DNA from: an uncultured SAR116 cluster alpha proteobacterium
GTDB taxonomy: Bacteria > Pseudomonadota > Alphaproteobacteria > Puniceispirillales > Puniceispirillaceae
DNA: 45,045 bases
Direction of reading: 5' to 3'
NCBI GenBank assembly: GCA_902520885.1
Contig: CABYPW010000017.1
Span: forward strand, 1-45,045
Shown piece by piece: positions 31,262 to 33,168 of this stretch. Numbering within the stretch: position 1 is the first letter of the stretch; the number at the start of each line of letters is the position of its first letter. The notes under the pieces were generated by a model. That model saw nothing but the letters and a program-made list of their open reading frames with translations. It was not told the origin of the DNA and ran no database searches. The translations under genes and the position numbers were made by a program.

Positions 31262-31436
31262 AGCTTTCCCCTTAATTGATTCCAATGGTGTAATTTGAGC
31301 AAAATTGAAAAATAGTGTCAAATAGTTAAAAGAAAAGAAACTAAACTTACCAGACAAGCACGCTATTGAATTTGACTTTTATTGCTCTGTATACAACAGT
31401 TAAAGAATTCAATAATTGCGAGGGTTGTTTTATTTC

Positions 31437-33168
31437 ATGACAAAAATTACTTTTAATGATGGTATGAAAATTTACTGGGATCATCCTATTGAAATGGATG
31501 ACGGTCTCATTTTAAGAGCAGATATTTATTGTCCTGAGAGAGTTGGTAAATATCCAGTAATTATGACTTATGGGGTTTATGGTAAATGGCTCGACTTTAG
31601 AGATGGTTATAAGCCCCAATGGGATATTATGGTAGATAAGTTTCCAGAAGTTATGGCTAATTCTTCTTGCAAATATCAGAATTGGGAAGTTGTAGATCCT
31701 GAAAGATGGGTTCCTGACGGTTATGTTTGTGTGCGAATAGATTCGAGGGGTGCAGGACGCTCACCTGGTTATTTAGATCCATTTTCACCACGTGAAACTA
31801 AGGATTTTTATAACTGTATTGAATGGGCTGCCCAGCAAGAGTGGTCAAATGGAAAAATTGGTTTAAACGGAATTTCCTATTATGCAATAAATCAGTGGCA
31901 AGTTGCTGAATTACAGCCGCCTAACCTTGCGGCAATGTGTATTTGGGAGGGAGCGCATGATCTATATAGAGAATGGGCTTATCATGGCGGTATATATTGT
32001 ACATATGGTGGCAATTGGTATAAAGGGCGATGCATTCCAAGACAAAATGGCTTAGGCGTGAACGGATATAAAGCTCGGATTAATGGTGACTATGTGTCAG
32101 GACCGCTCACGCTATCAAATGAAGAGCTTGGTTATAATCGCACTAATATGAATAGAGATATGTCCAGTAATAAATTAGTTACGGACCAATATTGGCAGGA
32201 AAGAATACCCGATTTTTCAAAAATTACTGTCCCTGTTTTATCAGCAGCAAATTGGGGGGGGGCAATCACTTCATTCTCGAGGTAATTTTGAAGGTTTTAA
32301 CAAGATTGCTTCTACTGAGAAATGGCTTGAAGTTCATGGCATGGAGCATTGGACAGAGTTTTATACAGATTATGGCGTAAATATACAGAAGAGGTTTTTT
32401 GGACATTATCTTAAAGGGGAAGATAATAATTGGAGAAATGAGCCCAGAGTTACTTTGCAGGTAAGGTATCCTGGCAATAAATTTGTTGAAAGAAAAGAGA
32501 ATGAATGGCCATTAAAGCGAACAAATTGGACCAAGTTATATCTAACACCAACTGGCTCGCTTTCTTCAGAAGAACAAACATTTGAAAAAACCAAAATTGA
32601 ATATGATGGTTTTGGAGAAGGTATAACTTTTGTAAGTCAGCCTTTGTCTGGCGAAACAGAAATAACAGGCCCAATGGCATCAAAACTATTTATTTCATCT
32701 GAGTCTTCAGATGCTGATTTGTTTTTAGTCGTGCGAGTGTTTTCCGAAGATTTTAAAGAAATTACTTTCAAAGGTGCATTAGACCCAAATACCCCTGTAG
32801 GACAGGGATGGCTGCGTGCGTCTCACAGAAAACTAGATCCAAATATGAGCAAACCTTACAGGCCCTATTACACACATGACGAAATTCAGCCTTTAGAGCC
32901 TCAAAAAATCTATGAGTTAGATATCGAGATTTGGCCAACTTCAATAGTAATACCTAAAAATTACAGAATAGCGCTTACAGTCAGAGGAAGAGACTATGTA
33001 AATCAATCTGGTGGAGGCAGTACACTTCCTAATATGAATAAATTTTCGGGTTGTGGCCCGTTTTTACATAACGACCCTGATGACAGACCACTGGATATTT
33101 TTGGAAAAAAAATATCGCTTCACTTTTCAGAAAAGGATGTTCCATATTTATTGCTGCCTATCATTTGA
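31437..33168 (+). pseudogene. CocE/NonD (S15-type) hydrolase split by a nine-G tract
   Basis: Two consecutive frames encode one protein. The first part (stop at 32285) has DSRGAGRSPGY and GISYYA with the nucleophile Ser147. The second, in the next frame, has HGMEHWTEFY and the C-terminal jelly-roll of CocE/NonD hydrolases up to 33168. The break is at nine G (32254-32262). With eight G the frame reads Trp-Gly-Gly-Gln-Ser-Leu-His-Ser-Arg-Gly-Asn straight through, giving 576 residues, the normal family size. The rest shows no decay. Three readings are possible: recent inactivation, a switchable slippage tract, or a homopolymer sequencing error. The family cleaves esters, amides or X-Pro bonds. 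Confidence 0.85.
32254..32262 (+). repeat. Poly-G tract (G9) at the frameshift
   Basis: Nine consecutive G in an otherwise AT-rich region, located within codons for Trp273-Gly-Gly of the hydrolase. Loss of one G restores the full reading frame. Such tracts are the standard substrate for slipped-strand phase switching, and also for base-calling errors. Confidence 0.9.

Follow-up and report, generated by a model that had tools for sequence, protein, structure and literature searches.

A CocE/NonD hydrolase gene split by a G9 run

The window, a stretch of 45,045 nucleotides from an uncultured SAR116 cluster alpha proteobacterium, carries a gene of the CocE/NonD hydrolase family that is read in two frames on either side of a run of nine G. 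The features at the locus are as follows.

31437-33168, + strand: CocE/NonD hydrolase gene, both parts, split by the G9 run
31437..32285, + strand: first part, alpha/beta-hydrolase domain with Ser147 (PF02129, E 2.1e-41; TIGR00976, E 2e-43; 3ib3, E 1.4e-44)
32254..32262, + strand: G9 run that covers the codons for conserved W-G-G and causes the frameshift, seen directly in the sequence
32263..33168, + strand: second part in the other frame, C-terminal domain (PF08530, E 4.9e-28; 3ib3, E 3.7e-36)

The first frame starts at ATG 31437 or at an upstream TTG at 31416, and its stop codon ends at 32285, just past the tract; the second frame is open across the tract and through to 33168. Both Pfam matches lie above their cut-offs, and the S15-type domain is followed by the PepX_C domain in the correct order for the CocE/NonD family. 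The best TIGR00976 stretches cover profile positions 2-241 in the first half and 280-356 in the second; the first half scores 149.3 bits, above the cut-off of 66.3, and the second half alone scores 57.5 bits, below it. The two halves thus match TIGR00976 and the nearest solved chain (3ib3/3iii) in order, serine region first and C-terminal domain second. In contrast to such hydrolases, the frame in the window is broken at 32254-32262, where six close orthologues have one uninterrupted frame.

The initial annotation, made from the sequence alone, had placed a G9 run at exactly these positions and described it as splitting a CocE/NonD hydrolase, and both statements are borne out by the two frames and the domain matches on either side. 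Its joined protein of 576 residues agrees with the lengths found here, namely 272 codons before those of the tract, three for W-G-G and 301 after. The proposed nucleophile Ser147 aligns, as counted by hand, with Ser117 of cocaine esterase chains, which we take to be the nucleophile of that enzyme. A second CocE-like gene (L106, G000:C2:139571-140377) was found elsewhere in the same genome; its frame is open over 579 aa, and it is 50% identical over the first half.

The assembly of the window comprises 2,172,012 bases (2.17 Mb) in 39 contigs, and this is its sole G9, beside seven G8 sites. Exact G7 words occur four times in the window, three of them within the G9 run, against 1.48 expected, and four were reached in 12 of 100 shuffles of the window. 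As a run, the G9 is rare and within reach of chance; the notable point about it is the disruption of a conserved gene.

The tract in related genomes

Relatives of the first half were found in 13 of 61 searched genomes, that of the window included, and eight of the 13, again with the window, have a close orthologue with at least 91% amino-acid identity. G9 is present in the window and in AG-422-K21 (nucleotide identity 98.9%), two of these eight, while AG-893-K07 (95.6%) and SW42618_bin_29 (94.2%) have G8 and an open frame. In the remaining four orthologues, at 80-83%, the run is interrupted by another base and the frame is open. Programmed frameshifting was rejected because of the single open frame of these six orthologues. 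Compared with the open genes of AG-893-K07 and SW42618_bin_29, neither half in the window has a further indel or stop, as had been claimed at the outset.

We also scanned a larger collection and considered the best 80 of 187 confirmed related stretches, some of these loci being second copies in one genome. The pattern W-x-x-x-x-L-H is in frame at the site in 79 of these 80 loci, the exception being AG-422-K21. The motif reads W-G-G-Q in 68 of the 79 in-frame loci and W-S-N-Q in 3ib3 (two alignments). The longest G run at the site is four or less in 75 of the 79; the other four have G8 (AG-893-K07, SW42618_bin_29 and L070) or an in-frame G9 (L087), and L070 and L087 come from distant organisms. 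Since 75 of the 79 in-frame loci lack a G run above four, the conserved slippable tract expected of a phase-variable locus is not present here. Given the short runs of most relatives, the simplest view is that glycine codon choice in a small clade produced the tract by chance and that it is not maintained.

The initial annotation had left open whether the G9 is an ON/OFF slippage switch or a base-calling error. A reversible switch, with slippage turning the hydrolase on (G8) or off (G9) in some cells of the population, would fit the presence of both lengths among the four closest genomes (G9, G9, G8, G8) in a gene that is otherwise undamaged and whose halves are both still under selection. We nevertheless hold it to be improbable: the tract is not conserved beyond these closest genomes, the assembly that supplies the second G9 has overlong G runs (see below), mismatch repair is intact, and no break of frame occurs at the seven G8 runs elsewhere in this genome. 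Scrambled glycine codons without variation in length had been named beforehand as the pattern in relatives that would speak against a switch. The scrambling is found in the distant relatives, but the four closest genomes differ in tract length as assembled. Between the two readings, error is the better supported.

Substitutions between the two G9 copies

The copies of the window and AG-422-K21 differ at 19 positions, 14 synonymous and 5 nonsynonymous when each change is placed singly on the window sequence; a codon-wise count gives 13 and 6, with two changes falling in one codon. Neutral simulation with the same base changes produced a mean of 12.8 nonsynonymous changes, and five or fewer in about 1 of 10,000 trials (P about 0.0001). 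The second half alone has 7 synonymous and 2 nonsynonymous differences (neutral P 0.004), and the branch of the window alone carries 6 and 3. Nine neighbouring ORFs, compared between the same genomes, range from synonymous to nonsynonymous ratios of 8:1 and 10:2 to 4:3 and 9:11, and the hydrolase gene ranks among the better-kept of its neighbourhood. The absence of stop codons is a weak sign, as 36% of the neutral simulations were equally stop-free.

On this substitution pattern of 14 against 5, which gives no indication of relaxed selection, we rejected a pseudogene inherited since the two lineages parted; because of the ratio and its neutral P of about 0.0001, the gene appears not to have been dead over that time, and an inherited pseudogene is unlikely. 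A very recent break, or a merely apparent one, is possible.

The equal run length in the two genomes, together with the purifying pattern between them, would also suit a G9 inherited by both and tolerated through slippage in transcription or translation that yields some full-length protein. This account depends on the G9 of AG-422-K21 being real, and the two nearest relatives with G8 need no rescue; we give it hardly any credence.

Long G runs across the genus

As a control, all G8 (53 sites) and all longer runs of at least G9 (18 sites) in ten genomes of the genus were surveyed and the frames around each inspected. The 71 tracts were classified partly by hand into 13 broken, 45 in frame and 13 left out. 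Ten were called broken by script (L203, L204, L205, L159, L118, L113, L126, L116, L127 and L128). Three were added by hand, L114 and L124 from orthologue comparison and L115 from its orthologue L197, which is in frame at G8; L144 and L146 were judged in frame by eye. Those left out as leader, spacer or unclear are L110, L112, L122, L134, L143, L147, L153, L157, L191, L198, L200, L201 and L207, of which L143 and L200 had been called spanning by the script. Among the broken tracts, matches of the two pieces to a single family, in the correct order, are limited to L205, L159, L118, L128 and L116; at L128 and L116 one piece matches the N-terminal and the other the C-terminal domain of the same enzyme. 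A single piece is matched for L203, L204 and L127, and neither piece for L115.

In AG-422-K21, six of the seven coding tracts of at least G8 that could be classified are out of frame. The breaks fall in rpoB, an SDR gene, an ABC permease domain gene, an aldehyde dehydrogenase gene, a dnaE2-like polymerase gene and the CocE/NonD hydrolase gene. In rpoB the break lies at a G8 run (L205:1502-1509; G004:C30) between pieces of 510 and 535 codons, which meet inside RNA_pol_Rpb2_3 at profile positions 1-27 and 21-68. The dnaE2-like gene has G10 near its start against G8 in SW42618_bin_29, and the other seven aligned genomes have no such long run. Since a living cell cannot lack rpoB, its run must be overlong by error, which points to a systematic G-run problem in the AG-422-K21 assembly, and we suspect the other five broken runs as well. 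With 6 of 7 tracts out of frame, rpoB included, the G9 of AG-422-K21 at the hydrolase is of little weight.

In AH-326-N16 (G001), 4 of 9 coding tracts are broken, in lysA (G11, L128:1501-1511), a dehydrogenase E1 gene (G8, L159), a pirin gene (G9, L116) and a cupin gene (G9, L127). AH-287-O21 (G003) has 1 of 9, a small membrane-type gene at G9 (L115), whose in-frame orthologue L197 belongs to AG-325-M05 (G007). The latter has 1 of 6, in a PALP enzyme gene with the junction of its pieces at profile positions 168 and 166, and AG-893-K07 has 0 of 2. Taken together, 12 of 33 coding tracts are broken in the five AG-/AH-named assemblies against 0 of 13 in three binned ones (SW42618_bin_29, BS307-5m-G6 and SI073_bin19; Fisher P 0.011). 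The same contrast without AG-422-K21 is 6 of 26 against 0 of 13 and is not significant (P 0.08). G005, with 6 of 6 tracts in frame, stands outside the main contrast; pooled with the bins it gives P 0.002. Names such as AG-422-K21 presumably denote single-cell assemblies. Among the five with AG-/AH- names, four have a record title that starts with 'MAG'.

Outside the genus, 23 genomes of the family were searched and 58 sites of G9 or more were found in 17 of them, with no confirmed frame break at any of these sites. Five automatic 'broken' flags were rejected: at each site there is a longer ORF that runs entirely, or very nearly so, to one side of the tract, and Pfam matched none of the ten pieces.

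G runs and mismatch repair in the genome of the window

All five other classifiable coding G8 runs in the assembly of the window are in frame, so that no general tendency to overlong runs is seen in it. Two further G8 runs precede likely start codons by a short distance, and no frame break was seen at any of the seven other G8 runs of this genome. General poor quality of the window was also rejected: in a 12.8 kb alignment with AG-893-K07, no gene body has a single-base gap other than the G9, and the seven remaining gaps of this size fall in spacers or at the edge of an ORF. Were this a single-cell assembly, a single overlong run in six would agree with what is seen in AH-287-O21 and AG-325-M05; were it a binned one, a real mutation would become more likely.

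Runs of G8 or G9 just upstream of likely starts were seen at L110 (G005), L143 (G006) and L200 and L201 (genome of the window). One such site differs in length between two genomes (G9 and G8), and a G run in this place could affect the spacing of the ribosome site.

Open frames for MutS (889 aa) and MutL (622 aa) are present in the genome of the window, so that loss of mismatch repair is rejected. Each protein was found in 9 of 10 genomes of the genus, the misses being assemblies that are 61% and 64% complete. Intact MutS and MutL speak against fast natural slippage.

These data bear on the possibility that the sampled cell or strain recently acquired a real +1 slippage mutation. This would be an ordinary frameshift, without regulatory meaning, in a gene that can be spared for a time. 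G8 is the type of run in which such mutations arise, the other coding G8 runs of the assembly are all in frame, and the second CocE-like gene is open. We consider it a serious but rather unlikely alternative, as mismatch repair genes are present and open, the hydrolase gene is under purifying selection, and comparable breaks in the genus fall in genes that cannot be dead, so that a source of error is known.

Interpretation

The weights given to the explanations are judgements and were not computed. The run is probably G8 in truth and was called one G too long, the gene being intact in the living cell. This reading rests on three observations: relatives read through the site, G runs of sister assemblies are out of frame in indispensable genes, and the two G9 copies differ mainly by synonymous changes. 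Against it stand the five in-frame G8 runs of the same assembly, the contrast between AG-/AH-named and binned assemblies, which loses significance without AG-422-K21, and the 'MAG' titles of four AG-/AH-named records. Within this clade, both glycine codons of W-G-G-Q would have become GGG by chance, giving G8. An extra G may then have been added by amplification, library preparation, sequencing or assembly to give G9, and the hydrolase gene would most likely be unbroken in the cell. We infer that the same kind of error occurred in the assembly of the window as in its sister assemblies.

Phase-variable homopolymer genes of bacteria are attributed to slipped-strand mispairing in the part of PMC3711429 available to us. 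The locus resembles them as described there in having a coding G run whose length sets the frame on or off across genomes. Unlike them, it lacks a conserved tract and lies in a genome with intact mismatch repair, it encodes a hydrolase of a type that is probably cytosolic rather than a surface or modification function, and one of the two genomes in the off state has G runs that demonstrably cannot be relied on. The same source regards singleton frame transitions as likely indels or sequencing errors. The hydrolase is like these singletons in that most relatives are unbroken and the break is not common to the orthologue cluster, but it differs by a near-identical second genome with equal run length, whose assembly is out of frame at most long G runs.

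No published report of overlong G-run errors was found in our search, nor any literature on phase variation by poly-G tracts in alphaproteobacteria; in this literature, judged short of full texts, there was also nothing that dealt specifically with G runs following single-cell amplification and nothing related on marine phase variation. A comparison of single-cell amplification methods with NextSeq sequencing has nothing on G runs in the portion available (PMC5519541), and the words 'frameshift' and 'phase variation' are absent from the text of a SAR116 study of 120 SAGs and 63 MAGs (PMC8547437).

It is very improbable that a reversible G8/G9 switch operates at W-G-G of the hydrolase in this free-living open-ocean alphaproteobacterium with intact mismatch repair and that some of the out-of-frame runs of its sisters are real cell-to-cell variants. 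A real switch would add a contingency locus to an oligotrophic ocean bacterium, a kind of organism for which our literature search turned up none. For the genus, the result is a caution: rpoB and lysA are among the genes thrown out of frame by G runs of at least eight in certain AG-/AH-named assemblies, and frameshifts at such runs should be taken as phase variation or gene loss only after the reads have been inspected.
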